The notes under the pieces: generated by a model
Database searches by the model: none
What the model was told of the DNA's origin: nothing
Seen by the model: only the letters and a program-made list of their open reading frames with translations
Made by a program: the position numbers and the translations under genes
In this document: positions 3-29,913 of the stretch, piece by piece
Layout of the letters: each line of letters begins with the position of its first letter
How positions within the stretch are numbered: position 1 is the first letter of the stretch
NCBI GenBank assembly: GCA_022750415.1
Contig: JAKIVT010000010.1
Span: forward strand, 1-33,156
Direction: 5' to 3'
From: Thermoplasmata archaeon
Lineage (GTDB): Archaea > Thermoplasmatota > Thermoplasmata > Lutacidiplasmatales > UBA184
Length of the DNA: 33,156 bases

Positions 3-2897
3 AACCAGTACGCGTGGCCGCCGGGGCAGGTCTACCCGCACCTCGCGACCGGCGTCTCGACCTACGGGTCCACCACGAAGGGGTTCGATTTCCCGACCGG
101 GTGGGGCTCGATCAACGTCTGGAACTTCGCCCAGGACCTGCTGCAGATCGAGCAGATGCCGGGGACGTTCATCACCGTCAACGCGAGCAGCAACCACTAC
201 GCTCCGCTCGAGTGGACGGACCTGACGACCAACAACACCTATACGATTCACGTCAACGCGACAGGGACGTTCGCCTCGAGTTCCCCCGTGGTTACGGCCG
301 AATTCTTCGGGAGCAACGGTGTCAACAGTAGCATGAACCCGACGCTGACCCCGACGTTCTCCCCAGCCACGGGGTTCGACTTCACGTTGAACACCTCCCT
401 CCCGCCGTACGCACCGCTATTTTCGGCGGGACTACTGATCTTGACCATCGGCAACGCAACGAACCCAAGCTCAGGGTTCTTGTACGACTGGATTTCCCAG
501 CAGATCCCGACCGGCCCCCTCAACGTGACCGTCGTTGCCCCCAGCACGAGTGGAGAGGTCGGCGGGTACGCCGAATTCAACGCGTTCCTCGGGTTCGGTC
601 CTCCGACGGTGGACCCGGCGTGTTGCGGCGCGCTATTCGCCAACACGTTCACCGTGCGCGTCACGCAGGGCGGACAGCCCGTCTACGACGCGCTCGTCGT
701 CGCCTCGGTGTCCTCGACCAACCTCCTCGCGTTCTCCGGCTCCCTCGCGGAGGCCCAGTCAGACTCGTTCGGCAACCCCCACTACAAGTCCCCCACGCAG
801 GTTTCGCAGTCCCTGACGAACGCGACGGGCTACGCCCTCGTGTACACCTGGAACGTGATCGCCCCCACGACGTTCTTCGTGAACGCGACGTACGGCGCAT
901 CGTTCGGCGGCACCACCTACCAGATCCTGCCCGGTCCGAACGTCGGGATCAGCGACAACTCCGGCGGGACAATGTCGAACTTCAACGTCATCCGGTGGAT
1001 CCTCTACGCGACCCACCAGAACGACTCGGCGAGTTCCATCGCTCGGGAGGAGCCGAACGCCCTCAACCAGACGGCGTTCTGGAACCTGATGTACGGCTGG
1101 CAGGGCGAGCGGGTCACCGTCAACGTCTCGAACTACACCGGGGCGCCCCTCTCCGGCTCGAACGTCTGGCTCGGTACCTTCGATTCGGGTCGGGAAACGA
1201 AGTTCGAGCGGTACGAAAGCACCGGCTCGACCCTCGGGGTCACGAACACGTCCGGGACGGCGGCCCAGACCAACAACAACGGTCAGGCAGTCATCCAAAT
1301 CCCCGACAACATGTCGGATACGGGATTCTTCTCCACGACGGCCCAGGGCCAGACGTCGGGGTGGGGCTGGATTGCCACGGACATTCCCGGTTCCGTGAAT
1401 CGGACGTTCCAGTACCAGGAGCCGTGCATCCCGACCCTGCCCACGTTTACGGCGTTGATCCACTGCGAGTTCAATAACTCGTACCAGCGGAATTACACCG
1501 CGGCGCCGATCCTGGTGCTCCCGAACCCGGTCGCCGTCACCGTGCAGACCCCGAGCCGCCTCCCGCTCGACTTCTTCGGAGTCGGCGCGAACGTGTCGTT
1601 CGAGGTCAACGTCTCCCTGCCGTTCCTCGACCCGGTCGCGGGGAACAACATCGGGTGGAACTGGCCGGCCTCCCGGGAGCACATCACCGCGATCCAGGCG
1701 TTCGTCGACGGGCACTTCGCCCTCGACCTGTCGCCGACGTCCCCGCCGTTCTGGCAGAACTACACGAAGTTCGGCAACCTGTCGAACACGTTCGCCCCGG
1801 GAACGCACTTCCTAACCCTGGTCGTCAACGACAGCCAGGGGCGGACGTTCACGGACACCCAGCAGTTCATCGTCGGGGGCGTCACGATCACCAACCTCGG
1901 GATCAACAACCTCTACACGGTGGTGCCGTTCGTCGTCAACTGGACGCTCGAGCTTCCCCCCGGCGACGTGTACAATTACACGTTCAGCCAGACGTTCGAC
2001 CTCCGCTACGTCACCCCGAGCTGCGGGTCCCCGCGGAACCCGTGCCCGACGGTCGTCAACCTGACGGAGAAGATCCACGACGGCCAGGTGCTCTACAACC
2101 AGTCGATCAACCTGACCCTCATGGGGCTCGACCACTTCTACGCGGGTTCTGGAGGGTATCCGCCGGGTCAGTACCAGGTGATCATCTGGCTCAACGCGAA
2201 CCATTCCGGTTCGATCGCGAAGGAGGTGAACACGTTCCTGATCTTCGCCCCGGTCGTGGGCGGGATCACGGGTCCGGGCACCAACGCCACTGTCCCGCTC
2301 GGCAACGTGACGCTGGCGTACTCCTACCAGGGCGGCTACATCGTCAACGCGTCGCTGTTCGTCTACTCGAACACCGACATGCTCAATCCGGTCTTCAAGG
2401 CCGGAGCGTACGTGCCGGCCGTCGGGGAGCAGCCGCGGGCGGGCGCCGCCACATGGCAGGCGGTCCAGACGGGAATGTACGATGTGGTCCTCTTACTCGG
2501 GACCCCGTACGCGAACTACACGGCGCACGATTGGATCAACGTCACCAATCCGAACGGGTTGGTGTTCCTCAACCAGTCGAAGGGGAACACGCCACTGATC
2601 TCGCTCTCGTCCGCCGCGCTGGCGACGATCCTCGCGATGGTCGCCCTGATCGTCGGGCTGTTCCTCGGCCTGATCGCCGCCCCCGCCCTCCGGCCAACCC
2701 TGACCGGCACGGCGGCGTCGGGGTCCTCCGCCCCCAAGCCGTGGGACGAGGGAAAGCCGACGACCGGTGGAGCGGCGGCGTCGGGAACGGCCGAAGGCAC
2801 GCCGGGGGGCCTCAGCTGCCCGATCTGCCACGAGCCGATGACCAGCCAGTTCGCCCTGCACCAGCACCAGCAGGTCGTGCACGGACTCGAAGAGTAG
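3..2897 (+). CDS. C-terminal part of an S53 (sedolisin)-like surface protein; Ig-like domains, C-terminal TM helix and terminal C2H2 zinc finger (5'-truncated at window edge)
   Basis: The frame is open from base 3: NQYAWPPGQVYPHLATGVSTYGSTTKGFDFPTGWGSINVWNFAQDLL resembles the S53 C-terminal GYD-x-x-TGWGS motif. It continues through Asn/Thr-rich beta-sandwich-like sequence, TM segment AALATILAMVALIVGLFLGLIAAPAL, and CPIC-x12-HQQVVH (CX2CX12HX4H). The listed ORF start at 156 is internal. Confidence 0.75.
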   Translation, partial: NQYAWPPGQVYPHLATGVSTYGSTTKGFDFPTGWGSINVWNFAQDLLQIEQMPGTFITVNASSNHYAPLEWTDLTTNNTYTIHVNATGTFASSSPVVTAEFFGSNGVNSSMNPTLTPTFSPATGFDFTLNTSLPPYAPLFSAGLLILTIGNATNPSSGFLYDWISQQIPTGPLNVTVVAPSTSGEVGGYAEFNAFLGFGPPTVDPACCGALFANTFTVRVTQGGQPVYDALVVASVSSTNLLAFSGSLAEAQSDSFGNPHYKSPTQVSQSLTNATGYALVYTWNVIAPTTFFVNATYGASFGGTTYQILPGPNVGISDNSGGTMSNFNVIRWILYATHQNDSASSIAREEPNALNQTAFWNLMYGWQGERVTVNVSNYTGAPLSGSNVWLGTFDSGRETKFERYESTGSTLGVTNTSGTAAQTNNNGQAVIQIPDNMSDTGFFSTTAQGQTSGWGWIATDIPGSVNRTFQYQEPCIPTLPTFTALIHCEFNNSYQRNYTAAPILVLPNPVAVTVQTPSRLPLDFFGVGANVSFEVNVSLPFLDPVAGNNIGWNWPASREHITAIQAFVDGHFALDLSPTSPPFWQNYTKFGNLSNTFAPGTHFLTLVVNDSQGRTFTDTQQFIVGGVTITNLGINNLYTVVPFVVNWTLELPPGDVYNYTFSQTFDLRYVTPSCGSPRNPCPTVVNLTEKIHDGQVLYNQSINLTLMGLDHFYAGSGGYPPGQYQVIIWLNANHSGSIAKEVNTFLIFAPVVGGITGPGTNATVPLGNVTLAYSYQGGYIVNASLFVYSNTDMLNPVFKAGAYVPAVGEQPRAGAATWQAVQTGMYDVVLLLGTPYANYTAHDWINVTNPNGLVFLNQSKGNTPLISLSSAALATILAMVALIVGLFLGLIAAPALRPTLTGTAASGSSAPKPWDEGKPTTGGAAASGTAEGTPGGLSCPICHEPMTSQFALHQHQQVVHGLEE

Positions 2898-3043: not shown

Positions 3044-4636
3044 ATGCGCCAATCTTCGGTACTTCGGGTTGGGACGATTGCCATTTTGGCCGTTCTTCTG
3101 GTCGCCCTGTCCGTCGGAGCTGGCGTGTTCGCCTTCCCGTCGGGCATGGCCGTCCGGACGGCCGGAGGGGCGCATTCTGAATCCGCCCGGACGTTCGCGG
3201 CGCCGCACGCCGCCTTGGCCGCCCATGCGCCCGCCCCCGCGATGGCTCGGCACGCGGCGGCCCACCCCGGCGCGAACGCCACCAACAACACGACCCTGAC
3301 GAACATCACCATCGCCCCGCTCAACAGCACGATTGCACCCGGCAGCACGGTGGTCCTGACGGCCACCCTGACCTGCAAGTCCAACAACACGGCCAACGGG
3401 ACGGTCGTCGCCTGCCCCACGAACCTGACGGCCAACGTGAGCTACACGTGGTCGGTTGGGACACCGTTCGCCGGCACTCTCAACGAGTCGAACCAATCGT
3501 CCGTGACGTTCATCGCGGGCTGGGCGACGTCCTCGACCACAGTGGGCGTGACGGGGGCTCTGTCGGACTTCCCCACCTACAACAACTCGACCATCAACGC
3601 GCCACCGGCGACCGTCAACGTGGCGACGAGCGAGGCCCCGGTCATCACGATCGCGTTCACGACCGCCTTCCAAGTGTACATGCAGGTCCCGTGGGACCTG
3701 ACGTTCACGGTCTCGGTGACCGGCGGTTCGATTGCGCCGAGCTCGACCTGGGTGAACGTGAACGTTCGGGACCTGATTCCGACGTGCGGCAGCCAGTACA
3801 GCTTCCTGGGCGCTCCCCCGTGCCCCGAGTTGATCAACGTCTCGATGCCGGTGACGAGCGGGCAGTCGACCTTCTCGTACATGATCAACTACACCAACCT
3901 GGACCAGAACGGGTACGCGAACCCAACGGCGGGGGTCTTCCCGGCGGACGTGTTCCAGTTCATCGCCTGGGTGTCCGACAACAACAGCGCGGCCAACCAG
4001 ACGGCGGGCCTGGAGCAGAACGCCTACCTGGTCTTCCATACCCCGAGCGGGATCTTCGCGCAACCGGTCCCCGGTGACAGCCTCTCGACCGGCAACGTGA
4101 GCTTCGCCGTGACGTACTACGGCGACTACCTGCAGGCGGCCGAGCTGATCGTCAAGAACGCAACGGGACAGGTGGTGTTCGTCCAGGCGGTCTTCGCCGT
4201 CGGACAGGGGAACCGTACCGTGGTCGCTCCGACCATGTGGCTCGCGGTGACGCCGGGGCAATACACGGCGTACATCAACTTCACCACGCCGTACGGGTCG
4301 TACCAGAGCTCGCAGAAGTACACGGTCATCCCGGCGGGCCAGACGATCTACATCAACCAGACGGCGTACCACAACGCGTCGTTGCTCGGTGGCCTTTCTC
4401 AGGGGCTCTCGGGAATGTTGCTGCTGGTCATCGGCCTGATCATCGGACTGGTGGTCGCGCTGGTCCTCGGCCGGATGATGTGGGGCACCCCCAGCCAGCC
4501 CTCGTCTCCCCAGCCGTGGTCGCCCACGCAGAGTAGCGACTCGAGCGGGACGACGTCCAGCGGCGGAACTTCCTCGACCCCTCCCTCCACGGGTAGCTCG
4601 GACATGAGTTCCGAGGGCTCGACGACGGACAAGTAG
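3044..4636 (+). CDS. Secreted/membrane-anchored surface protein: N-terminal signal, sequon-rich ectodomain, C-terminal TM helix, Ser/Thr-rich tail
   Basis: N-terminal hydrophobic segment (VGTIAILAVLLVALSVGAGVFAF), many NxS/T sequons, TM segment GMLLLVIGLIIGLVVALVLG, low-complexity tail. Resembles the C-terminal part of the upstream CDS. Confidence 0.85.
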   Translation: MRQSSVLRVGTIAILAVLLVALSVGAGVFAFPSGMAVRTAGGAHSESARTFAAPHAALAAHAPAPAMARHAAAHPGANATNNTTLTNITIAPLNSTIAPGSTVVLTATLTCKSNNTANGTVVACPTNLTANVSYTWSVGTPFAGTLNESNQSSVTFIAGWATSSTTVGVTGALSDFPTYNNSTINAPPATVNVATSEAPVITIAFTTAFQVYMQVPWDLTFTVSVTGGSIAPSSTWVNVNVRDLIPTCGSQYSFLGAPPCPELINVSMPVTSGQSTFSYMINYTNLDQNGYANPTAGVFPADVFQFIAWVSDNNSAANQTAGLEQNAYLVFHTPSGIFAQPVPGDSLSTGNVSFAVTYYGDYLQAAELIVKNATGQVVFVQAVFAVGQGNRTVVAPTMWLAVTPGQYTAYINFTTPYGSYQSSQKYTVIPAGQTIYINQTAYHNASLLGGLSQGLSGMLLLVIGLIIGLVVALVLGRMMWGTPSQPSSPQPWSPTQSSDSSGTTSSGGTSSTPPSTGSSDMSSEGSTTDK

Positions 4637-4754: not shown

Positions 4755-5984
4755 CTAGGCGAACCGGAGGGCCGGAAATTTCCGGCGCCACGCCAGGACT
4801 TCGGCGGCGACCCGTTCCTTCTGGACCCCAGCCCGGACGAGGAAGTCGGCCAGGCGAGGCATGTCGTCGGGCGTCAGCCCGAGGCGGGTGACCTCCGCGG
4901 TTCCCAGCCGGCCCGCGAGGTCGCCCACGAGCCGTTGCTTCTCCCACCGGCGGGCCAACGCCCCGGGGGCGATCCCGTGGCGTCGCATGAGTTCCGAGCG
5001 GTCGAGGAGGAGCTGGTGCGAACGGGTGAAGCCCTGCGCCTCGGCGACGAGGGGGATCTTCCGCTCCGTGAGCGCCCGGCCGAGCGCCTGAGAGTTCTGG
5101 ACGACGGTCCGGGCGTACTCCGGTCCGACCCGCTCGAGCTCCAGCACCGTCTGGGCGACGCCCGCGATCCGGTTCCAATGGGCGTTGTCGAACACCCGCC
5201 AGACGAGCGCCGGGTCGATCTGGTCGAACAGGTCGGTCCGGTCCGTGGCAAGGATTCCGCCTTGCGGACCGGGGAACGACTTGTGCGTGCTCCCGTAGAG
5301 GATGTCGGCCCCTTCCCGGAGCGGGTCCTGGAACTCCCCTCCGGCGATCAGACCGAGCACGTGCGAAGCGTCGTAGAAGACCAAGGCACCAATCGAGTGG
5401 GCCGCCTCGGCGATTGGGGCCATCGGGTACGGAAACAGGAAGAAGCTCTGCCCGAGGACGACGGCGTTCGGACGCTCCCGGCGGATCTCGGCGGCGGCCG
5501 TTTCGGGCTCGACCGAGAATCCCGGACCGTCGGCCGGGAGCGGTCGGACCTCCCAGCCGAACAGCGCCGGGAGATACCCCGGGGCGTATCCGTCGTACCC
5601 GCCCTGGTCGGGGGAAATGGCGAGGATCTTCGACCCCTTGGGCAGGAGCGGCACCAGGGCCGACATGGCGGCGATGTGGCCGGAGAGGGGTCGGACCGTC
5701 GCGTGTTGGGCTTTGAACAGCCGCGCGCACGCCGCGTTTCCGAGCGCTTCGATCTCGTCGGTGTACTTCGTCCCGGCGTAGCTGTTGTCGATCGTCTCGC
5801 CGTGAAACTTCGTGACGACGGGGAGGGTGTAGCGCCCGGCGAGGTCGCTCGCGAGGAAGCTGCGGGCCTTGGGCGAGACGGCGTTCTCGCTCGGCAGGAG
5901 ATTGAACACCGAGCGACCGCGCCAGCGGTCGTGGGCCCGGACGAGCCGGAGGAGGCGGGCTTCGTCAGGCGGGAGTTCGGGCAT
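4755..5984 (-). CDS. glyA: Serine hydroxymethyltransferase-like PLP enzyme
   Basis: NLLPSENAVSPKARSFLASDLAGRY, SYAGTKYTDEIE, and PLP-lysine region YGSTHKSFPGPQGG. Confidence 0.8.
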   Translation of the reverse strand: MPELPPDEARLLRLVRAHDRWRGRSVFNLLPSENAVSPKARSFLASDLAGRYTLPVVTKFHGETIDNSYAGTKYTDEIEALGNAACARLFKAQHATVRPLSGHIAAMSALVPLLPKGSKILAISPDQGGYDGYAPGYLPALFGWEVRPLPADGPGFSVEPETAAAEIRRERPNAVVLGQSFFLFPYPMAPIAEAAHSIGALVFYDASHVLGLIAGGEFQDPLREGADILYGSTHKSFPGPQGGILATDRTDLFDQIDPALVWRVFDNAHWNRIAGVAQTVLELERVGPEYARTVVQNSQALGRALTERKIPLVAEAQGFTRSHQLLLDRSELMRRHGIAPGALARRWEKQRLVGDLAGRLGTAEVTRLGLTPDDMPRLADFLVRAGVQKERVAAEVLAWRRKFPALRFA

Positions 5985-6567
5985 CGGACTTCGCGGCGGC
6001 AGTGGGGATTTGGCCGTACCCGCTCGCCGTCTTCCGGTGCTCGCGGTTCCCGCAGCGCGGGCACCGCAGCTCCTTGTCGCCCCGCCCGAGGAGGCCGTGG
6101 CACGATTGGCAGCGCGCCGCGACCACGCCGAGGTCGGAGGCGGCGGTGGAGAGCTTGACCGACGGGTGGCTCTGCAGGACCCGAGCCACGATCAGGTCGC
6201 CCGGAGCGAACTCGTCGGAAAGCGCCTCGGTGTAGCCGTCCTTCGCCTTCGAGATGTGGACCGTCCCTTCCGGGGCGCCGGGGACGGGCCGCTGGCTCGT
6301 GGCGGCGGTGAGGATCGTGACGATCGCCATGGCGCTCTTGACCTCGTCGACGCGGCCGTACACGAGGTCGTCGTCGTGGACGCTCGGGATTGCGTTCAAG
6401 GCGTCGACGCTCACCGCCCGGTCGCTCGGGTCCACGCGGCGGTGGCCGAGGAGGCAGGCGTAGATCTTCCCCCGGTCCTCGTACGTGCCGTGGCCGGGAA
6501 CGAACTCTTCAGCGGTGCCGAGGAGCTCGCCAGGGATGACGAGGGTGTCGCGTGCTTCGCTGCTCAT
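5965..6567 (-). CDS. csl4: Archaeal exosome RNA-binding subunit Csl4-like protein (S1 domain plus zinc ribbon)
   Basis: Start MSSEARDTLVIPGELLGTAEEFVPGHGTYEDRGKIYA, S1-like region, C-terminal CQSCHG...CPRCGN zinc ribbon. ATGA overlap with the upstream methylase supports the 6567 start rather than 6882. Confidence 0.85.
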   Translation of the reverse strand: MSSEARDTLVIPGELLGTAEEFVPGHGTYEDRGKIYACLLGHRRVDPSDRAVSVDALNAIPSVHDDDLVYGRVDEVKSAMAIVTILTAATSQRPVPGAPEGTVHISKAKDGYTEALSDEFAPGDLIVARVLQSHPSVKLSTAASDLGVVAARCQSCHGLLGRGDKELRCPRCGNREHRKTASGYGQIPTAAAKSDARTPA

Positions 6568-7175
6568 TTCGACGGTCCTTGTGTGCGGATCACCCAGAGG
6601 TCGACCGGGAGCTCGACCGAACGCTTCCGGTGGTGCCGGAACGTCGGGCCGAGCGTCCACGGGACCGGCCGTTGGGCCTCGACCCGCGCGCCGCGAGCGA
6701 CCGTGAGGCGCGCTATAAAGGTTCGGGAGTCGGCGAGCGCGAAGGCGTAGACGGCCCGCGGGCAGGCCAACGCCGCTTCCCAGAACGGGCGGTCGGCCCC
6801 CCGGGTCTGGGCCCCGAACGGGGGATTCATGACCACGGTCTCGGCCGCGGACTCCACCCCCGCGACGTCGCGGATCGTCCACGAGACGTGCGCCCCGGCG
6901 GCCGAGGCCGCGGATCGCGCGAGCTCGACGGCTCCCGGATCCGCTTCGATCCCCTCGACGGGGCCCGCTCCCAGGAGAGCGGCGCCGATGGCGAGTCGTC
7001 CCGTCCCGCTCCCCAGGTCGACGACCGAGCGGGCGGCGAGGTCCCCGCGGGCGAGCGCCTCGAACAACAGGTCGGCGGCCCGCTCCGGCGGGGTCGCGAC
7101 CTGCTCGCGCTTCGGGTCCGGGTTGGAAAACTCCGGCACCTGGGACAGGATCCGAACTAGCTCGCTCCGCCGCAT
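6564..7175 (-). CDS. METTL5-like predicted RNA (N6-adenine) methyltransferase
   Basis: SAM motif VVDLGSGTGRLAIGAALLGA and catalytic NPPFG; adjacent to Csl4. Confidence 0.85.
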   Translation of the reverse strand: MRRSELVRILSQVPEFSNPDPKREQVATPPERAADLLFEALARGDLAARSVVDLGSGTGRLAIGAALLGAGPVEGIEADPGAVELARSAASAAGAHVSWTIRDVAGVESAAETVVMNPPFGAQTRGADRPFWEAALACPRAVYAFALADSRTFIARLTVARGARVEAQRPVPWTLGPTFRHHRKRSVELPVDLWVIRTQGPSK

Positions 7176-7658: not shown

Positions 7659-9479
7659 TTAGTCCTTTCTGCCGACCGGCACCCCGGTCGCTCCGTCCGG
7701 GGCGTCGTCGCCCTCCGTCGACTCGCGACGCACTTGGGTCCGGTACAGGCGGAGCAACTCGGCGGCGGTGGTCGCGTCCTCGGGGCCCTTGTCGTCGCGC
7801 CATCGGCCCGTGAACCGAGGGAATCGCAAGGCGAAGCCGGCGCCGGGCCGGACCATTCCCAGCCCAGCCCGGTGGTTCGGGCTGAGCGAAAGCTCCGCGC
7901 CCCGAACTTCGAGGACGAGCCCGGGTTTCATCCATCGGTCGGGCTCGAGGCCGGTGTCGATCCCCGGGGGGCGCTCCTGGACCTCGAACGGTCGGAGCTT
8001 CTCAGGGAGTGCGGCCAGCGCGGCGTCGTCGAATCCGGTCCCGACCTTGCAGAACGACTCGTAGACCCCCTTCTCCGGGTCGTACGACGCGAGGAGCAAG
8101 GCCCCATAGGTTCCGGCCCGACGGCCCCGCCCGTGGAAGGCACCGACGACGACCCCGTCGATGGAATCGGCGAGCCCTTGCGTGTACTCGCGCTTGTACT
8201 TGATCCACCAGAACCCCCGCGCCCCGGCCCGGTAGGAGCTCTCGGCGGAGAGCGACTTGGCCATGACTCCCTCGCATCCGTCGGCGATCGACTCGTCAAA
8301 GAACGCCTGGGCCGCCGGGACGTCGGTGACGACCCGCTGCGTCGCGAGACGAATTCGAGTCGAGCCGCGCACGAGGGCCTCGAGCCTCCGTCTCCGCTCG
8401 GGGAAGGGGAGGTCGATGGTCCGTCCGTCACCGTCCAAGAGTACGTCGAACAGGAACAGCGCGACACGGATCTCTTCCTGCATCCGTTCGAGGTCGTACT
8501 TTCGTCCCCGTCGGCGAGAGATCTCCTGGAACGGTCGGATCTCGTCGGTATCGGCGTCGACGGAGACGCACTCCCCTTCGACGATGGCCGGTCGGCTGGC
8601 GAGCGCGTTCGGGAGGTCCGCGAGGAGCTCGGGGAACTGGGCGCTGATCTCCTCGAGTCGCCGCGAGAACAGCCGAACCTTCCCGTGGGCGTCGAGATGC
8701 GCTTGGACCCGGAGGCCGTCGTACTTGTACTCGAGGGCGGCCGTCCCCTCCATCCGCTTCAAGACCTCCGTCAGATCCTTGGCCCGTTCCCCGAGCATGG
8801 GGCGGACGGGCCGGCCGACGGTCAGGGTGATTCCGGCCAAGGCGGCGACGCCGCCGTCGGCCACCGTGGTGGCCACAACGCCGAGGTCGCTCGAGACGTT
8901 GAACGCCGCCTCGATCGCGAGCCGAGATTCTTTCGTTCCCCCGCCCCACGCCGCGCCGAGCGCGTCGAGGATCGTCGCTTCCCGGACCCCGAGGCGGAGC
9001 GTTCCCATCACGAACCGGATGAGGTACTTTCCCTCCAACGGAGCCGCCCGCCCGAGGAGGTCCCGGAGAATGCCGATCTTCGCGTCCTGCGAACCCTCAC
9101 CCGCCGTCTGCGCCACGCGAAGGAGGCCGTCGTAGACCTCCGAAACCTCCAGAGGTCGGTCCTCGCCCGTCTTCCCCCCGGCCGTCAGTAGCTCGGCCGC
9201 GACGTCTCCCAGATCCCCGAGGGCTCGAAGTCGTTCGGCGACCGCCGTGGGTTCGGTCGAGGTGGCTTCGGCGACGGCCCGGGCTCCCAGGGAGGCAGCG
9301 AGACCGAGTTCGACCCCCTCGTACTCCGGTCGGAGTTGCCCTTGCGAGAGGTAGACGACGGAGGCGAGCTCGCCCCTCGGGACCGATTGGAACAGTTCCG
9401 AAAGGATGGTGCGCATCTCGAGGCGTTTGGTCGTCGCCTCGAGGCGTTCGTACGACCGGACGAGCTCAGCGAACCGCAC
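7659..9479 (-). CDS. lig: ATP-dependent DNA ligase
   Basis: Nucleotidyltransferase motif EYKYDGLRVQAH (KxDG), EGVMAKSL, WIKYKREY. The start is placed at GTG 9479 (VRFAELVRSYERLEATTKR); the preceding ORF sequence overlaps rpe and looks non-coding. Confidence 0.93.
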   Translation of the reverse strand: MRFAELVRSYERLEATTKRLEMRTILSELFQSVPRGELASVVYLSQGQLRPEYEGVELGLAASLGARAVAEATSTEPTAVAERLRALGDLGDVAAELLTAGGKTGEDRPLEVSEVYDGLLRVAQTAGEGSQDAKIGILRDLLGRAAPLEGKYLIRFVMGTLRLGVREATILDALGAAWGGGTKESRLAIEAAFNVSSDLGVVATTVADGGVAALAGITLTVGRPVRPMLGERAKDLTEVLKRMEGTAALEYKYDGLRVQAHLDAHGKVRLFSRRLEEISAQFPELLADLPNALASRPAIVEGECVSVDADTDEIRPFQEISRRRGRKYDLERMQEEIRVALFLFDVLLDGDGRTIDLPFPERRRRLEALVRGSTRIRLATQRVVTDVPAAQAFFDESIADGCEGVMAKSLSAESSYRAGARGFWWIKYKREYTQGLADSIDGVVVGAFHGRGRRAGTYGALLLASYDPEKGVYESFCKVGTGFDDAALAALPEKLRPFEVQERPPGIDTGLEPDRWMKPGLVLEVRGAELSLSPNHRAGLGMVRPGAGFALRFPRFTGRWRDDKGPEDATTAAELLRLYRTQVRRESTEGDDAPDGATGVPVGRKD

Positions 9480-10161
9480 GGCGGGACCCCTCGTCCACCG
9501 CGCGCCGCAGGCTCTTGAGGTTGTCCGAAACGGGGTCCTTGTTGAACACGGAATTGCCGCAGACGAAGAACGTCGCACCGCTCTCCGCCGCGAGGGTCGC
9601 CGTCTCGGTCGTGATCCCCCCGTCGACGGAAACGTCGGCGGAGGAGCCCGATGCGTCGAGGGCCTTCCGGGCCGCCACGACCTTCGGAAGCACGTCGGGA
9701 ATGAACTTCTGCCCCGAGAACCCCGGCCGCACGCTCATCACGAGCACCTGGTCGAGCCGGTCAAGGAGCGGTTCGACCCGGTCAAACGCCGTGTCCGGAC
9801 GGATTGCCGCCCCCACCCGAACCCCCGTGGCACGGATCGCCCGGACGGTCTCGTCGGCGTCGTCGGACGACTCCACATGAAACACGAGCGTTGTACCGCC
9901 CGCCTTCGCGAACGCCTCGGCGTACTGCGCGGGATGTTCGATCATCAGGTGGACGTCGAGCGGGAGACGGGTCCGCATCCGGACGGCTTGCACGAGCGCC
10001 GGTCCGAAGGTGATGTTCGGAACAAAATGGCCGTCCATCACGTCGAGATGGAGCGCGTCGGCGCCGCCCGCCTCCGCCGCTCGGATGGCTCCGGCGAGGT
10101 CCGAAAAGTCGGCGCTCAGCAGAGAGGGGGCCAAAAGAAGCCGACGGCCCACCGTCGGCAC
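9466..10161 (-). CDS. rpe: Ribulose-phosphate 3-epimerase
   Basis: LLAPSLLSADFSDL, LHLDVMDGHFVPNITFGP, DVHLMIEHP, VLVMSVRPGFSGQKF, VDGGI. Confidence 0.93.
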   Translation of the reverse strand: MPTVGRRLLLAPSLLSADFSDLAGAIRAAEAGGADALHLDVMDGHFVPNITFGPALVQAVRMRTRLPLDVHLMIEHPAQYAEAFAKAGGTTLVFHVESSDDADETVRAIRATGVRVGAAIRPDTAFDRVEPLLDRLDQVLVMSVRPGFSGQKFIPDVLPKVVAARKALDASGSSADVSVDGGITTETATLAAESGATFFVCGNSVFNKDPVSDNLKSLRRAVDEGSRRAVR

Positions 10162-10182
10162 ATCCGGGCCACTCCGTTGGGG

Positions 10183-10190
10183 TATATATA
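10183..10190. promoter_or_regulatory. TATA box (TATATATA) in the divergent rpe / substrate-binding protein intergenic region
   Basis: TATATATA within GC-rich DNA, about 55-60 nt upstream of the SBP start and about 22 nt from the rpe ATG; symmetric, so it could serve either direction. Confidence 0.6.
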
Positions 10191-10245
10191 CGACCTCGGA
10201 GGTTGGCGACCAAGTCTCGGCCGCGGCCGAACTTTGGTGAAACGA

Positions 10246-13200
10246 ATGGAAGCGGAGAGTGTGCCCTCAGGGTCGGACCGACGCTGGCAAGGCAAGCGCG
10301 GACTGTCCACGCCAACGGCAGCGATCATCATGATCGTCGTCATCGCGCTGGTCGCCGCCGGTAGCTTCGCCGCGTTCAACGCGGTCAAGCCGCAGACGGG
10401 AACCACGCAGAACTGCGAGCCGAAGTCCAGCTACATTTGCGTCAACTTGCTGGCGGGGCATGACATGGCTCTCCTGGTGCCGTTCAAAACGACCCAGGCA
10501 GGAACCACGGTCCCCTTCACAGCTTCTTTTACAAAAGGCGAAACTTCCTCGAAATACGTTTTCAACTTCGGTGACGGCTCCAACGTAAGCTCGAACGTCC
10601 CGACGGTTTCCCACTCGTATGCGGCACCAGGTACCTACATCGCCTCGGTGACAGCGACGGTCGGCGGAGTGACCCACGACAACTTCGAGTCGTTGGCGCT
10701 CATCACCGTCGCCCCCTCGTACACCTCCTCCCACTCCGGCACCGCCCCGACGGTCACGGGCGCGATCGTCAAGATCACCAGCGGACTCGCCGGCCCGACA
10801 GCGGTCGTCGCCGTCGGCGGCCAGGTCACCATCGCGGGTGCCTACAGCTCCGCGCCGACCAACCCGCTCTTCACCCCCCAGGCCCCGACGATCACGGCGA
10901 GCACGGGCGTCCAAACCAGCGGCACATCGGGCACCAGCACCTCGGCGACGGCCACGGTCCAGTGGCAGAACCCGGGTATCTACACCGCGGTGTTCGTCGG
11001 TGAGGCAAAGTCCGGCAGCGTCGTGGCCTACCAGAACTACACGTGGACGGTCTTCGTGGCCGCCACGGGCGTTCACGCGGGCATCGGGGGCGGGGCGAGT
11101 TCGGTCTCTAACCCGCACCCGAACAGCCTCGACATCTACGAACTCTCCCCCGGCGGCTCGACCTCGGAAGACCCTGCGATCGACTACGAGACGGTGGGCT
11201 ACGAGCCGATCATCAACATCTACCAGACGTTGATCTCGTACAACGGGAGCGACTCCGGTCCGGGCTACCAGAACTTCGTCCCCGTCGCCGCGGCGTGCGT
11301 GCCGGGCAGCCCGCAGTGCACCGCCCTCTTCGGGACCAACCTCACCAGCGGGACCGACTACACGTTCGTCGTGAGCAGCGCTCCCCAGTTCTACGACCCG
11401 GTCAGCCACAACCACTGGGGCATGTACCCCTCGGACGTCGTGTTCAGCCTCGCCCGAACGCTGGGCTTCGCGACCCAGCCGGCGTTCGGCGCGAACAACG
11501 GCTGGATCGTCGCCCAGTCGCTCCTCTCGGCGGGGAACGGCGCTTGGGACGGCGGGATCCACGCGACGATGAACAACACCCCCCAGGGCGTGTTCAACTC
11601 GATGTCGGTCAACGAGACCGGCGTGTGCACGGCCGCGATGATGACGGGAAGCTACCACGGCTGCGTCACGTTCCACGTGAACGCGAACGGCGTGAACTGG
11701 CCCTACTTCCTCGAGTTGATCTCGGACGCGCTCGGCTCGGCGATCGTCCCGTGCGGCTGGTTCAGTGCGATGGCCCAGGGCTCGGGAATCCCGGGCTGGA
11801 CGTACAACACTGAGTCGTCCTCCGATTCGGGCGACCACCCGTGCCTCCTGCCCGGCGGCGCAACGTCGACCTCGCAGGCGCAGTTCCAGCAGGCGATTTC
11901 GCTGACCAACATGACGCCGACCTCTTGGGACACCTGGCAGACCATCGGCTCGGGAACCCAGTCTTCCGGGCACTTCTGGGGCAACACCCAGTGGAGCATG
12001 GCCGGCAGCGGTCCGTACTACATGGCCAGCCTGACGATCGGCCAGAACTACCTGCTGAAGCCAAACCCCGCCTACGCCCAGACCCCCTCGTGCACCTGGC
12101 TGGGCTGCGAGCCTGCCCCCGGGACCTACGCGCACTCGGTGAGCGTGGACTGGGAGCAGAACCAGCTGCCGGGTGAGGAGGCCTACGCGGCCGGATCGGC
12201 CGACTTGGCGAGCATCCCCGCGACGGATGCGGCCCTGTTGCTCCAGCTGATCCAGCAGGGGAAGATCGGTGCCACGACGTTCCCGTCGTTGAGCATCTAC
12301 TTCTTCCCCTTCACGGCGGAGTTCAACCTCGCGGGCGCGCAGAAGTACACGTCGAACCCGATCACGGTTCCGACGGACTTCTTCGCCAACTCCGGGGTCC
12401 GGAACTTCTTCGTGAACGCGTACCCCTACACGACGACGGAGAACACCATCGGAACGAAGGACGGGATCCAGTACGACTTCAACTACGGCGGCGCGATCCC
12501 GCAGTTCATGGGGGCGTACTACCCCACGAACGTTTCGTTCCCGAGCACGGACCCGGTGGCGAACGACAAGACGACCGGGTCGGCCTCCTGGTGGTGGACC
12601 CAGCTGGAAGCCAACGTCAGCACCCCCTCGAGCCCGTTCTACGCCCCGGAGCTGGCGAGTTGCACCACGGCCAACCCGTGCCAAGTGCCGTTCTTCGGTG
12701 AGACCGGTGCCCCCGATGTCGACCAGCGCCTGGCCCTCTGGGCCGCCGAGATCTCCCTGCTTTCCGGCGGGAAGCTCAAGGTGAACGTGCTGGACATCGA
12801 CTTCACCGACCTCGTGCTGAACTCGCTCTACAACGGCCCCGGGCAGAACCCGATGCCGTTCTACGAGCTGGGGTGGGCGCCCGACTACCCGGACCCGACG
12901 GACTACATGGTCCCGCTCTACAAGCCGGACGGGTCGTACACCCACGCCGACGCGCTCAGCGAGGTCTTTGAGGGGTACCCGAACCCCGGCCCCAACCCGA
13001 CGTACAACAACTCGGCGTGCCACACCTGGACGGACTACGGATACTGGTCCAACCAGGCCCAGACCCCCGGCGGGATTGCGAGCGACTGCCAGGGTTCGGC
13101 GTACGGGGCGATGGCGCTGGCGCAGCAGGTGGCGGGCTACACGCCCGACGGCCCGCAGCGCGTGCTGATCTACAACATGATCGAGCACATCGCGAACGCG

Positions 13201-13353
13201 CTGGCCCTGTACACCTACTGGGGACAGTCGAACGTCGTGCTGACCTACGCGCCGTGGATCAACGGTGCGTCGGCCAACTCCAACATCGTCATCGGCGGCG
13301 GTGGAGACCAGACCTGGTACACCTTCACGGGCATCAACGGGGCCCCGGCGTAG
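10246..13353 (+). CDS. Membrane-anchored extracellular solute-binding protein (family 5, peptide-type) with N-terminal PKD-like domain
   Basis: N-terminal TM AAIIMIVVIALVAAGSFAAFNAV, PKD-like FNFGDGSNVSSNVPTVSHSYAAPGTYIASVTATV, then SBP_bac_5-like sequence (YEPIINIYQTLISYNG, YPSDVVFSLAR, YELGWAPDYPDPTDYM). Alternative GTG start at 10237. Confidence 0.88.
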   Translation: MEAESVPSGSDRRWQGKRGLSTPTAAIIMIVVIALVAAGSFAAFNAVKPQTGTTQNCEPKSSYICVNLLAGHDMALLVPFKTTQAGTTVPFTASFTKGETSSKYVFNFGDGSNVSSNVPTVSHSYAAPGTYIASVTATVGGVTHDNFESLALITVAPSYTSSHSGTAPTVTGAIVKITSGLAGPTAVVAVGGQVTIAGAYSSAPTNPLFTPQAPTITASTGVQTSGTSGTSTSATATVQWQNPGIYTAVFVGEAKSGSVVAYQNYTWTVFVAATGVHAGIGGGASSVSNPHPNSLDIYELSPGGSTSEDPAIDYETVGYEPIINIYQTLISYNGSDSGPGYQNFVPVAAACVPGSPQCTALFGTNLTSGTDYTFVVSSAPQFYDPVSHNHWGMYPSDVVFSLARTLGFATQPAFGANNGWIVAQSLLSAGNGAWDGGIHATMNNTPQGVFNSMSVNETGVCTAAMMTGSYHGCVTFHVNANGVNWPYFLELISDALGSAIVPCGWFSAMAQGSGIPGWTYNTESSSDSGDHPCLLPGGATSTSQAQFQQAISLTNMTPTSWDTWQTIGSGTQSSGHFWGNTQWSMAGSGPYYMASLTIGQNYLLKPNPAYAQTPSCTWLGCEPAPGTYAHSVSVDWEQNQLPGEEAYAAGSADLASIPATDAALLLQLIQQGKIGATTFPSLSIYFFPFTAEFNLAGAQKYTSNPITVPTDFFANSGVRNFFVNAYPYTTTENTIGTKDGIQYDFNYGGAIPQFMGAYYPTNVSFPSTDPVANDKTTGSASWWWTQLEANVSTPSSPFYAPELASCTTANPCQVPFFGETGAPDVDQRLALWAAEISLLSGGKLKVNVLDIDFTDLVLNSLYNGPGQNPMPFYELGWAPDYPDPTDYMVPLYKPDGSYTHADALSEVFEGYPNPGPNPTYNNSACHTWTDYGYWSNQAQTPGGIASDCQGSAYGAMALAQQVAGYTPDGPQRVLIYNMIEHIANALALYTYWGQSNVVLTYAPWINGASANSNIVIGGGGDQTWYTFTGINGAPA

Positions 13354-23434: not shown

Positions 23435-25885
23435 ATGGATCGGCGCCTGCGCTCCCTGCTACGCCTGAGCCTCGTCGTCGCGGCGGCGTTCCTCGGGCTC
23501 GGCGGTGTGCTGTCTCCCCTGGGAGCCGCGACGGCCGTGCCGGCGGCGGCCCCCCATCCGACCCCGGTCTGGGCGAGCGAACTACCGTCGGCGCTCTTGG
23601 GGGCGCCCGCTGCCCGCCTAGGTTTCAACGCAGCCATCGCGCAATCGGTTCTCGACGCGGCGCCCGCTTCGGGAACGCTCACCACGGTCCTCACGCTTCG
23701 GCCAAGCAGCCCTTCGTTCTACCTGACACCCGGTCCGGGAACCCGCGCGCTGACCACGTCCGAGGTGGCCGCCGAGTACGGCCTGTCCCCCCTCCAGTAC
23801 TCCGCGCTCGAGTCGTATTTTACCGGCCACGGCATCACCATCCTTCACGCATGGCCTGACCGGTTGTCCCTGACAATCTCGGGTCCGGCCGCCCAGATGG
23901 GGAGCGCGTTCGGTACGTCCGAGAAAAGCGGGCTCTACCAGGGGCGACCCGTCGTGTTCGCCACCTCCCTTCCCACACTCCCCGCGCCGTTCCAGTCCGA
24001 GGTCGCTGCGGTCAGCGGGCTCACGACCGAACCCGGTCGATTCACGCTGCCGTTTCAGGCGCTCCCGGACCCTGCGCTCCCGCTGTCCACGGAGGCGGGT
24101 CCGGCGCAAGGTCGCACCACGCCGACCGTCACTCCGCCGGCGATCCACACGATTTACGGTCTCGACGCGCTGTACAACTATTCCGGGACGAGCCACTGGG
24201 CGACCGGCATCGGCATCGCCCTCGTCCTGTGGGGAGACGGGTACGCTCCCGCGGACCTCCAGACGTTCTACTCGAGCGCGTACCCTTCGGGATTCCCCGC
24301 GCCGGTGCTTCGGTACTTCCCCGTCGATGGGGCCCCGCAACCGTCCGCGGCCGCGCTCAGCGACCCGTCGACCGGTCCCCAGGAGCTGACCCTCGACCTC
24401 GAGTGGGCGGGGAGCGAGGCGCCGGGGGCGACCCTGGACGCTGTCTACGCCCCGGACGGTCCCTCGTCGAACGGGTACTCGCCGACCGACCCCTCGATGG
24501 AGGATGCGCTGAACGAGGCCGTCACCTCGGTCACCGGCGTGCAGGTCCTCTCGATGTCGTTCGGAACCGCCGACGGTACCGACACCGCGTTCCAAGCCGC
24601 GTTCTCGAATTCGTTCCACGAGGCGACGCTCAAGGGGATCACGATCCTCGCCGCGAGCGGCGACACGGGCGGCACCTCCTCCAAGAACTGCCAGGGCAAC
24701 GTCGCCCCCCAATTCCCCGCGAGCTCCCCCCAGGTCGTGGCCGTGGGCGGCACCGCCCCCGTGCTCACCGAGAACGCGCTCGGTGTCGTCAACGGGCTCG
24801 AATCCGAACCCGCCTGGAACCTCTCGGGCGGCGGATTCTCCGCGGACTACCCCGCTCCCTCCTGGCAGCTGGTCGGAAGCGCCGCGGGCCCGATCGGGGC
24901 GAGCGGGATGCGGGGCGAACCGGACGTCGCCGGACCGGCGGCGGACAACGAGTTCTACTTCAACGGACGGGCGGCGTTTGGCGAGGGGACGAGCTTTGCC
25001 ACTCCGATGTGGGCCGGCTTGATCGCCGAAATGGACGCCCTCCGAGGCAATCCTCTCGGCTTCGTGACCCCCCACCTCTATGCCGTCGGCGCCGGGGGAG
25101 GTGGATCCATCGGTGGGGGCCTCGTCGACATCACGCAAGGGGGCAACTGTCTCGGGCCCGCGGGACCCGGATGGGACACCGCGACCGGGTGGGGCTCGCC
25201 TCGGGCGTTGCCGTTGTTCGAGGAGATCGCCGGGACGTACGTCGGCGTCGACCTCGGCGTCTCGCCGCGACCCGTCGCGCCCGGAGCAACCTTGACCGCG
25301 ACGGTGCACGCGTTCAACGCAACGAGCAAACGGGGAATCGGTTCCCTGTCCGTCTTCGTCGAGCTCGACTCGCTGTCGTACAGTGGACCGTGCGGTGGGG
25401 TGCTCGCGACGGCCACCGGACCGACCGATGCGAACGGGTCGTTCACCGTCGGCGTCCCGGTCCCGGGGTGTTACTTCGGCTCGCAGGTCTCGCTGTCCGT
25501 TACCGTCAGCTCGAACGGGTTCTACGGCAGCAACCAGACGACGGTGGCCGTCAATCTCGACGGGATCTCCGGACTGCTGGCCGCCCTGCAACAGTACCCG
25601 TACAACGTCGTGGGGTTCGCGGTCATCATGGTCGCCGCGACCGCCCTTGGGTTGCTCGCGAGTTCCCGGCACAAGCGTCGCCTCGCACGTCGACCCCCCC
25701 CGCGGGTGCCGCCGGGGGCGAAATCGCCCGGTCCCGCTCCCCCTCCTACGAGCGACTCCGTGACGGGACCCCCAGGGCCCGACCCGATGCCGGTGGTCGA
25801 CGCGCCCGGACCGGCCACATCGGGGCCAGTCGCGGAACCCGAGGCGCCTTCGGCGGCGCCGAGCGCGCCGGATTATCCCGTCTAG
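23435..25885 (+). CDS. Secreted S53 family (sedolisin/pro-kumamolisin) peptidase with C-terminal Ig-like domain, TM helix and Pro-rich cytoplasmic tail
   Basis: N-terminal signal, activation domain, E/D pair in QELTLDLEWAGSEAPGATLD, oxyanion-type ILAASGDTGG, catalytic GEGTSFATPMWAG, Ca-site-like VDITQGGN...GWDTATGWGSP, TM VVGFAVIMVAATALGLLASS. Confidence 0.92.
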   Translation: MDRRLRSLLRLSLVVAAAFLGLGGVLSPLGAATAVPAAAPHPTPVWASELPSALLGAPAARLGFNAAIAQSVLDAAPASGTLTTVLTLRPSSPSFYLTPGPGTRALTTSEVAAEYGLSPLQYSALESYFTGHGITILHAWPDRLSLTISGPAAQMGSAFGTSEKSGLYQGRPVVFATSLPTLPAPFQSEVAAVSGLTTEPGRFTLPFQALPDPALPLSTEAGPAQGRTTPTVTPPAIHTIYGLDALYNYSGTSHWATGIGIALVLWGDGYAPADLQTFYSSAYPSGFPAPVLRYFPVDGAPQPSAAALSDPSTGPQELTLDLEWAGSEAPGATLDAVYAPDGPSSNGYSPTDPSMEDALNEAVTSVTGVQVLSMSFGTADGTDTAFQAAFSNSFHEATLKGITILAASGDTGGTSSKNCQGNVAPQFPASSPQVVAVGGTAPVLTENALGVVNGLESEPAWNLSGGGFSADYPAPSWQLVGSAAGPIGASGMRGEPDVAGPAADNEFYFNGRAAFGEGTSFATPMWAGLIAEMDALRGNPLGFVTPHLYAVGAGGGGSIGGGLVDITQGGNCLGPAGPGWDTATGWGSPRALPLFEEIAGTYVGVDLGVSPRPVAPGATLTATVHAFNATSKRGIGSLSVFVELDSLSYSGPCGGVLATATGPTDANGSFTVGVPVPGCYFGSQVSLSVTVSSNGFYGSNQTTVAVNLDGISGLLAALQQYPYNVVGFAVIMVAATALGLLASSRHKRRLARRPPPRVPPGAKSPGPAPPPTSDSVTGPPGPDPMPVVDAPGPATSGPVAEPEAPSAAPSAPDYPV

Positions 25886-27832: not shown

Positions 27833-29077
27833 ATGTTGCGGGTTGCCGGAGGGATCACCGCGCCCCGCGGGTTCCACGCCGCGGGCGTGGCGAGTGGCGT
27901 GAAGCGGAGCGGACGGGCCGACCTCTCGGTCGTCCTCTCCGATCTCCCGTGCGTGGCCGCCGGAGTGTTCACGACGAACCGGGTTCGCGCGGCCCCCGTC
28001 GTGTTGGGGGCCCAACGACTCGACCGGTCCCCGTCGGGGATCCGCGGGATCCTGACGGTCTCCGGCGTGGCCAACGCTCTCACCGGGCCGGAAGGGATTG
28101 ACGACAACCTGCGACTCCTCACGGCCGCGGAGACCGAACTGGGACTTCCGGAAGGCTCGCTCCTGCCCGCGTGCACCGGCGTGATCGGACCGCGGCTCCC
28201 GATGGACCGGGTCGTCGCCGCCCTTCCGCAGCTCAAGACCGCTCTCGCCGGAGCGGGAGACGGCGCCGAACGAGCGGCCCACGCGATCCTCACCACGGAC
28301 ACTCGGGCGAAGGTCGCCTCGGTCCGGGCCCGCCTCTCCGATGGGACCGTCGTCCGCGTTGGGGGGATGGCGAAGGGAAGCGGGATGATCGCGCCGCGCC
28401 TCGCCCCCGTCCACGCCACTACGCTCGCGTTCCTGACGACGGATGCCAGGGCCCGGCCAGGCCCGCTCGGTCGCCTCCTGGCCCGGGAGACGGATTCGAC
28501 CTTCAACATGCTCAGCGTCGACGGCGACACGAGCACCAACGACACCGTGTACCTCCTCGCGAACGGGGCGGCGGGAGGGGCTAACGCCGATGACGACCCG
28601 GCCTTCGCGACCGCCGTTCATGCGGTGCTCGAGTCGCTCGCCCGCCAGGTCGCTCGGGACGGGGAGGGCGCGACGAAGCTCCTCACGGTCCACGTCGTCG
28701 GAGCGCGGACGATCGAGGACGCCCGAGCCGCCGCGAGGGCCGTCGTCGGCTCCACGCTCGTCAAGGCGGCCCTCTTCGGCGCCGACCCGAACGTCGGACG
28801 GATTGCGTGCGCGCTCGGCTACTCCGGGGCCCGCCTCGACCCGGACCGGATGGACGTGTCGATCACCCGCCCCCGACAATCGGTCCCCCTCATCGTCCAA
28901 GGGCGCCCGGCGCCCTCCCTCGAGAACGGGGGCGGGAGCCGGGTGCGCGACCTGCTGCGGCAGCTCGACGAAGTTCCCCTCGAGGTGCGCTTGCACGAGG
29001 GCCGGGCGAGCGCCACCGCCTGGGGCTGCGACCTATCCTACGCGTACGTGCAGATCAACGCCGCGTACCGGACGTGA
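27833..29077 (+). CDS. argJ: Glutamate N-acetyltransferase / ArgJ
   Basis: GGITAPRGFHAAGVASGVKRSGRADLSVVLSD, CTGVIGPRLPMDRV, KGSGMIAPRLAPVHATTLAFLTTDA (autoproteolytic region). Confidence 0.93.
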   Translation: MLRVAGGITAPRGFHAAGVASGVKRSGRADLSVVLSDLPCVAAGVFTTNRVRAAPVVLGAQRLDRSPSGIRGILTVSGVANALTGPEGIDDNLRLLTAAETELGLPEGSLLPACTGVIGPRLPMDRVVAALPQLKTALAGAGDGAERAAHAILTTDTRAKVASVRARLSDGTVVRVGGMAKGSGMIAPRLAPVHATTLAFLTTDARARPGPLGRLLARETDSTFNMLSVDGDTSTNDTVYLLANGAAGGANADDDPAFATAVHAVLESLARQVARDGEGATKLLTVHVVGARTIEDARAAARAVVGSTLVKAALFGADPNVGRIACALGYSGARLDPDRMDVSITRPRQSVPLIVQGRPAPSLENGGGSRVRDLLRQLDEVPLEVRLHEGRASATAWGCDLSYAYVQINAAYRT

Positions 29078-29079
29078 GC

Positions 29080-29913
29080 ATGGAGCGATCAATCCCTCTC
29101 GTGGTCAAGGTCGGCGGCCGGGAGACCGAGCCCGCCGGGGCCCTCCGGGACGTCGTCGCCTTCGTTCTGCGCGCGCAGCGGAGCGGGCGGGAGGTCGTCG
29201 TCGTCCACGGCGGCGGGGAGGAGGTCACGGCTCGGGCGACCGCGCTCGGCCTTCCGACGACCAAGGTCGGCGGACAGCGGGTGACGGACGCCGCCACCCT
29301 GGAACTGGCCATTGAAGTCTTGGCCGGCCGGGTCAATGGCCGGATCGTCAACGCCCTGACCGATGCCGGAATTCCCGCGGTCGGCCTGACGGGTGTTTCG
29401 GGTCGGCTGCTGCCGGTCAAACCGGCCGGAGACCCGCCGGGGTCGCTCGGATTCGTCGGAGAACCGACGGGAGCTCGGACTCGGATCCTCCGGACCTTGC
29501 TCGACGAAGGGTACACCCCGGTTGTCGCGCCGATCGGGACCGACCATGACGGGGGCGTCTACAACGTGAACGCCGATGTGGCCGCCGCGGCGATCGCCTC
29601 CGCGCTGGGCGCCGAGCTGTTGCTCATCACGGACGTCGATGCAGTCCTCGACGCGACCGGAACCGCGATCCCCTCGGTCCGTCCAAAAGACGTCGACGCC
29701 CTCGTCCACCGCGGGACCATCACCGGCGGCATGATCCCGAAGCTGACCAGCGCCGCCCGGGCCGTTGTCGCGGGCGCTCGTTCGGCCTGGATCGGCTCGG
29801 TGCAGGGGCTCGGGGACGACGGCCCCCGACCGTCCGCCGGGACCCGGATCCTCCCGGGTCGCGCCGTCGCCGTTCCGCTCCTCCCACTGCAACAGCGGGA
29901 GGTCGGACAATGA
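29080..29913 (+). CDS. argB: Acetylglutamate kinase
   Basis: LVVKVGGRE, VVVHGGGEEV, VNADVAAAAIA, LITDVDAVLD, GGMIPKL. Confidence 0.92.
   Translation: MERSIPLVVKVGGRETEPAGALRDVVAFVLRAQRSGREVVVVHGGGEEVTARATALGLPTTKVGGQRVTDAATLELAIEVLAGRVNGRIVNALTDAGIPAVGLTGVSGRLLPVKPAGDPPGSLGFVGEPTGARTRILRTLLDEGYTPVVAPIGTDHDGGVYNVNADVAAAAIASALGAELLLITDVDAVLDATGTAIPSVRPKDVDALVHRGTITGGMIPKLTSAARAVVAGARSAWIGSVQGLGDDGPRPSAGTRILPGRAVAVPLLPLQQREVGQ

Follow-up and report, generated by a model that had tools for sequence, protein, structure and literature searches.

A predicted cytoplasmic C2H2 zinc-finger tail shared by S53-type, thermopsin and protease-free surface proteins of Lutacidiplasmatales archaea

For the Lutacidiplasmatales, S53 peptidases and thermopsins are reported to be the prevalent extracellular peptidases, and the lifestyle to be acidophilic (Sheridan et al. 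2022, PMC9287336). Here we describe an S53-type surface protein of this lineage that ends, after a single transmembrane (TM) helix and a low-complexity linker, in a C2H2 zinc finger predicted to lie in the cytoplasm. Its gene opens the window, that is, the whole stretch of 33,156 nucleotides that was analysed. The same tail is found on protease-free Ig-like proteins and on thermopsins, and, as judged from sequence comparison, the finger is not peptidase-specific and the tail is a portable module. S53 surface proteases and C2H2 fingers are each known; their combination was not found in the literature and family libraries that we searched. The architecture is unnamed in Pfam and NCBIfam, our literature search turned up no surface protease that carries a folded, conserved zinc finger on the inner face of the membrane, and the word zinc is absent from the main text of Sheridan et al. 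2022 (PMC9287336).

Results

The full-length S53-type protein

The features of the gene within the window are as follows.

3 to 2897, forward strand: 3' part (964 aa) of the S53-type surface protein, whose frame lacks its start because the gene is truncated at window base 1.
3 to 137, forward strand: C-terminal end of the S53 domain, with the second Asp of a putative Ca2+ site (KGFDFPTGWG); also the contig overlap.
1905 to 2546, forward strand: two tandem Ig-like beta-sandwich domains, membrane-proximal ectodomain (AlphaFold2 strands 4-214; Foldseek).
2598 to 2672, forward strand: single TM helix with a conserved GxxxG (GLFLG).
2673 to 2810, forward strand: flexible low-complexity linker of about 48 residues, predicted to be cytoplasmic and disordered (pLDDT <50).
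2736 to 2753, forward strand: KPWDEG, conserved juxtamembrane Trp motif (Trp codon 2742-2744); it persists in 55 of 56 tails, among them tails that have lost the finger.
2811 to 2894, forward strand: C-terminal C2H2 zinc finger LSCPICHEPMTSQFALHQHQQVVHGLEE, its four ligands invariant in the 46 fingers recognised by that pattern.

The remaining 5' part of the gene, with the signal sequence, the propeptide and the catalytic triad, was located on a different contig of this genome (G000:C58, L004; the window is G000:C2). The two contigs meet in an exact 139-bp overlap, as in assembler overlaps, and the joined ORF codes for 1649 aa. The join is safe because the relatives' layout is the same within single frames: a close relative has an unbroken frame of 1672 aa with the same architecture, and single frames of 1488-2477 aa in other relatives share it, which rules out an artefact of contig joining. 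The longest of them, the 2477-aa S53 frame of L088 (G062:C16), extends about 800 residues further N-terminally in open-frame terms. The named relatives are Thermoplasmata MAGs, including Candidatus Lutacidiplasma silvani (Lutacidiplasmatales, Thermoplasmatota).

From the N- to the C-terminus the joined protein consists of a signal sequence (hydrophobic stretch at about residues 20-40), a kumamolisin-type propeptide, the S53 domain, a long beta-rich ectodomain with the Ig-like domains, one TM helix, the Trp-containing linker and the C2H2 finger. Foldseek, run with the tail model that includes the Ig-like region, returned only generic matches, to Ig-like and transglutaminase-type beta domains.

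The S53 assignment made in the first-pass annotation from the 3' part stands for the full-length gene. Residues 85-222 match the Pro-kuma activation domain PF09286 (E=1.1e-19, 71.5 bits against a cut-off of 23.5), and the best solved relative is kumamolisin (E=2e-17). Alignment to kumamolisin placed the Glu, Asp and Ser of the S53 family together with its oxyanion Asp, and none of these residues (Glu379, Asp383, Asp471, Ser619) varies across 26 full-length aligned rows, some of which enter the same gene a second time. The Ca2+-site pair Asp671 and Asp714 is also present, with Asn or Ser in a few homologues. Conservation of these sites indicates that the peptidase is probably active. The window codes for a second S53 peptidase (23435-25885, forward strand, 816 aa), which has a TM helix and ends in a Pro-rich, finger-less tail.

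A C2H2 finger on the cytoplasmic side of the membrane

The frame terminates in LSCPICHEPMTSQFALHQHQQVVHGLEE followed by the stop codon, an exact CX2CX12HX4H pattern (residues 1624-1645 of the joined protein) that stands behind a single TM helix (about residues 1551-1575, Kyte-Doolittle values up to 2.8), as had been read from the window alone. The chance expectation of a C2H2 pattern with three to five residues between the His, calculated for the 73-residue tail with the Cys and His frequencies of the protein itself, is about 2e-6; this figure and the invariance in relatives rule out a chance motif. In the AlphaFold2 model of the tail fragment, a TM helix (236-262, fragment numbering) leads through a disordered linker (263-301) into a finger with the beta-beta-alpha fold (pLDDT 74-83), and the finger folded alone was predicted as beta-beta-alpha with a core pLDDT >90. 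The family finger profile matches solved C2H2 proteins with E=2.5e-16, the target being a multi-finger protein. The window finger stays below the Pfam gathering cut-offs, at 20.3 bits against 27 and 18.8 bits against 25.2, as does that of the best relative seen, at 22.3 bits against 25, such cut-offs being curation thresholds and not a defining trait of C2H2 fingers. The window finger is atypical: Met stands where the core Phe would be, Lys and Arg are absent, and this copy may be partly relaxed. Assignment as a ubiquitin-binding zinc finger (UBZ) was rejected, since Pfam matches were weak (E 0.013, 3/16). UBZ fingers have a spacing and an Asp that do not fit the finger described here.

Two statistical signals place the tail inside the cell. 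Among 27 proteins, the ectodomains contain 836 N-X-S/T sequons in 26,839 residues and the tails 3 in 1,591, where ectodomain density would give 49.6; sequon density depends on Asn content, and this comparison is support for the topology rather than proof of it. Furthermore, Lys and Arg rise from 0-1 before the TM helix to 1-4 after it. With an N-terminal signal, one further TM helix, sequons outside and positive residues inside, the layout is that of a type I single-pass protein, and we consider the cytoplasmic location of the tail, which the first-pass annotation had proposed, to be strongly indicated. In an acidic exterior, moreover, a zinc site made of Cys and His would probably not retain its metal.

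Conservation and selection on the tail

The earlier expectation that the C2H2 residues would be conserved in orthologues was confirmed: both Cys, both His, the Gly that follows and the linker Trp are invariant in 20/20 S53-type tails, collected by a two-pattern search plus tblastn over 330 residues. When thermopsin and protease-free proteins were included, all 46 fingers kept the ligands (CX2CX12HX3-5H), an invariance that is partly by construction given that the fingers were recognised by the ligand pattern itself; the core Phe is found in 42 of them and the Leu in 44. Finger codons are the most constrained of the tail, with a dN/dS of 0.17 against 0.30 for the linker and 0.28 for the ectodomain (simple counting over a few close, non-independent pairs), and amino acid identity is 0.88 in the finger and 0.59 in the linker. 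Constraint extends to surface residues, with an acidic [ED][ED] C-terminus in all S53-type tails and Lys or Arg at finger column 20 in 42/46. The net charge lies between -4 and 0 in all 46 fingers, none being positive, and the positions on the helix face are variable. Zinc binding by the finger is a strong expectation. It is hardly credible that the pattern is a chance product or a relic that binds no zinc, as the missing core Phe and the sub-threshold Pfam score of the window copy might suggest, when the ligands persist over at least six genera under purifying selection and the beta-beta-alpha model is confident.

All 56 TM helices compared contain GxxxG/A, against 37 expected by shuffling, which gives weak support for helix packing as the relatives are not independent; GxxxG is common in TM helices generally.

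One tail on unrelated ectodomains

Downstream of the S53-type gene the window contains a paralogous surface protein, here called the partner, and two conserved neighbours.

3044 to 4636, forward strand: partner, paralogous surface protein of 530 aa with a signal sequence, Ig-like ectodomain, TM helix and QPW motif.
4755 to 5984, reverse strand: SHMT-like conserved syntenic neighbour, a locus marker that probably lies outside the system itself.
5965 to 6882, reverse strand: exosome RNA-binding subunit (ECR1_N), a conserved syntenic neighbour and locus marker.

The partner adjoins the S53-type gene, is itself protease-free, and is a paralogue of the C-terminal half of the S53-type protein (27% over 306 residues, E=2e-24). 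Its C-terminus in most relatives has the form TM-(P/A)W-linker-C2H2; in the window, and likewise throughout the clade formed by G000, G010, G062 and G271, a Ser/Thr-rich tail replaces the finger. Some genomes have the partner alone at the same syntenic place, which is recognised by the SHMT-like gene, the exosome subunit and further constant neighbours.

Finger-tailed proteins of three further genomes, G013, G019 and G304, carry a thermopsin domain (PF05317; E 6e-58, 2e-56 and 4e-44, respectively). Those of G013 and G019, the two covered by the neighbourhood comparison, sit at the same syntenic locus; the G304 tail is without the Trp. Other thermopsins, examined in nine genomes where their frames closed within the locus, have no TM helix or a TM helix with a short Arg-rich RRR tail, and neither the Trp motif nor a finger was found in them. 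These thermopsins and the second S53 peptidase of the window show that surface proteases do not in general end in the finger.

The first-pass annotation had described a peptidase joined to a zinc finger. That fusion is real, but the framing was too narrow, the same tail being present on the neighbouring protease-free paralogue and on thermopsins. Because one tail occurs on S53, thermopsin and protease-free ectodomains, mostly at a single syntenic locus, its job would be independent of the enzyme.

Every full-length copy of the module that was found belongs to family f1, where it is spread over genera g1 and g25-g29 (at least six genera). Outside the family, 300 genomes of the class and 293 of the phylum gave no match to TM plus finger, only short soluble fingers or a TM helix alone. 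The whole module is also absent from several near-complete genomes of the genus.

Related tails occur elsewhere in the genome of the window. A surface protein at G000:C137:2624-2791 (L034), with 13 sequons in the part examined, ends in TM-APW-linker-zinc ribbon (CPTCG...CENCG); here a zinc domain of a second kind takes the finger's place on the cytoplasmic side. Two others, at G000:C13:358-504 and G000:C57:17406-17573 (L028 and L029), have a TM helix followed by APW or QAW and no finger. Juxtamembrane Trp motifs of this kind may be more widespread in the lineage. Among the other genes of the window are a PKD-domain protein of 1315 aa (9406-13353, forward strand) and, in series at 27833-32580 (forward strand), argJ, argG (argininosuccinate synthase) and an argH-like lyase, an ordinary arginine biosynthesis set.

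Evolution of the finger

A tree was computed from 56 Ig-plus-TM regions. The 17 S53-type rows in it cluster in a single group (support 100/99), all with the finger, and the 10 finger-less rows require four changes. With a tree that has no root and covers short, diverged regions, we infer that the finger is ancestral and was lost about four times, always among partner-type proteins, one of which is the partner encoded in the window. The [PAQ]W motif is kept in 55/56 regions, also where the finger is lost. In the four-genome clade with finger-less partners, the S53 finger has also lost the core Phe and a Lys/Arg that is invariant elsewhere, which hints at coupling, though from one event only.

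Discussion

The architecture, the catalytic residues, the invariance of ligands and Trp, and the occurrence of one tail on unrelated ectodomains are established here at the level of sequence. What the tail does is a separate question, and the reading we prefer, to which we give an even chance, is that the finger docks proteins on the cytoplasmic side and thereby clusters or localises an acid-protease assembly at the cell surface. The S53 acid peptidase and its Ig-like stalk would stand outside as a type I protein, one TM helix would cross the membrane, and a flexible cytoplasmic tether would end in the folded finger as a module for protein-protein contacts. The finger, the juxtamembrane Trp and the GxxxG-type TM helix would together hold the protease in a membrane assembly, usually with the Ig-like neighbour; the assembly would bind either a cytoplasmic protein or each other's fingers, and docking would set where the acid protease sits. 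Within this reading the docking function itself is what we infer, and a protein ligand is favoured because the finger has no net positive charge and ends in an acidic [ED][ED]. The anchor that was among the original proposals survives in this form. Counting against docking, no cytoplasmic binding partner for the tail came to light; the finger has been lost about four times in partner-type proteins while the rest was retained, so that it is dispensable there; the module is missing from several near-complete genomes; and the window finger is atypical. Small soluble two-finger C2H2 proteins in which finger 1 is acidic or neutral and finger 2 basic (L030, L068 and L069, at G000:C194, G020:C210 and G035:C71) are possible candidate interaction partners of the tail.

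A bolder version, which we regard as rather doubtful, is that the portable TM-(P/A)W-C2H2 tail couples interchangeable S53 or thermopsin ectodomains to a scaffold or signalling protein dedicated to them in the cytoplasm and defines a new class of prokaryotic transmembrane zinc-finger receptor that arose within Ca. Lutacidiplasmatales.

Three other explanations are less likely than docking, in the order given here. The finger could be a folded cap without a specific partner, shielding the tail from cytoplasmic exopeptidases and the proteasome or fixing the orientation of insertion. A short finger at the extreme C-terminus of a disordered tether would suit such a cap, as would its loss or exchange for a Ser/Thr-rich tail in partners that retain TM helix and Trp. 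However, a mere cap does not account for the constraint on surface residues at the acidic end and at column 20, and other thermopsins in these genomes manage with short RRR tails, so that a cap is not generally needed; we consider it unlikely.

Somewhat less probable again is a regulated sensor, in which zinc occupancy or thiol oxidation of the finger alters the assembly from the inside, or cleavage outside is relayed inward through the TM helix. An ectodomain enzyme, one TM helix with a small-xxx-small motif and a folded cytoplasmic domain do make up the layout of a single-pass receptor, but no effector domain is attached, the conserved neighbours are housekeeping genes (SHMT-like and exosome subunit), and protease-free versions carry the same tail.

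Finally, the suggestion that intramembrane cleavage frees the tail to act on DNA or RNA, put forward in the first-pass annotation, lost support and is very improbable. C2H2 fingers are often nucleic-acid binders, and the finger profile does match eukaryotic DNA-binding fingers. DNA-binding C2H2 fingers are basic, usually repeated and conserved at base-contact positions; the finger here is single, never positive in the 46 examples, and variable on its helix face. In a small control of three soluble two-finger proteins from the same genomes, the second fingers have charges of +2 to +5.

That acid proteases of two unrelated families share one module points to a function for which the cytoplasmic tail itself is selected, and raises the question of what these archaea attach on the inside to their digestive surface enzymes. 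Under the docking interpretation it would add a membrane-bound, probably protein-binding role to those of prokaryotic C2H2 fingers, of which the best-known example, Ros, is a transcription factor.

Compared with known systems, the S53-type protein shares with the kumamolisin/sedolisin enzymes (PDB 1t1e, 1gt9, 1sio) the propeptide, the Glu-Asp-Ser set with the oxyanion Asp, the Asp pair of the Ca site and a secreted-type ectodomain. Kumamolisins are known as soluble secreted enzymes, whereas here a long Ig-like stalk joins the domain to a TM helix and a predicted cytoplasmic finger. Thermopsins (family A5) are likewise acid-protease ectodomains, and three relatives carry the TM-finger tail described here, the Trp motif being present in two, unlike the other thermopsins of these genomes. 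A recurrent TM helix and tail on varied ectodomains is also seen in archaeal surface proteins with other C-termini, such as the zinc-ribbon case L034. PGF-CTERM and similar sorting signals, too, place a C-terminal TM helix and tail on varied ectodomains and are processed outside; here, in contrast, the conserved element is a folded domain predicted on the cytoplasmic side. With classical C2H2 fingers (PF00096/PF13894; Ros and archaeal soluble fingers) the tail shares CX2CX12HX4H, mostly the Phe/Leu core and the predicted beta-beta-alpha fold. Classical fingers are soluble nucleic-acid binders, whereas this one is single, without net positive charge, below the Pfam cut-offs and held on a membrane tether.
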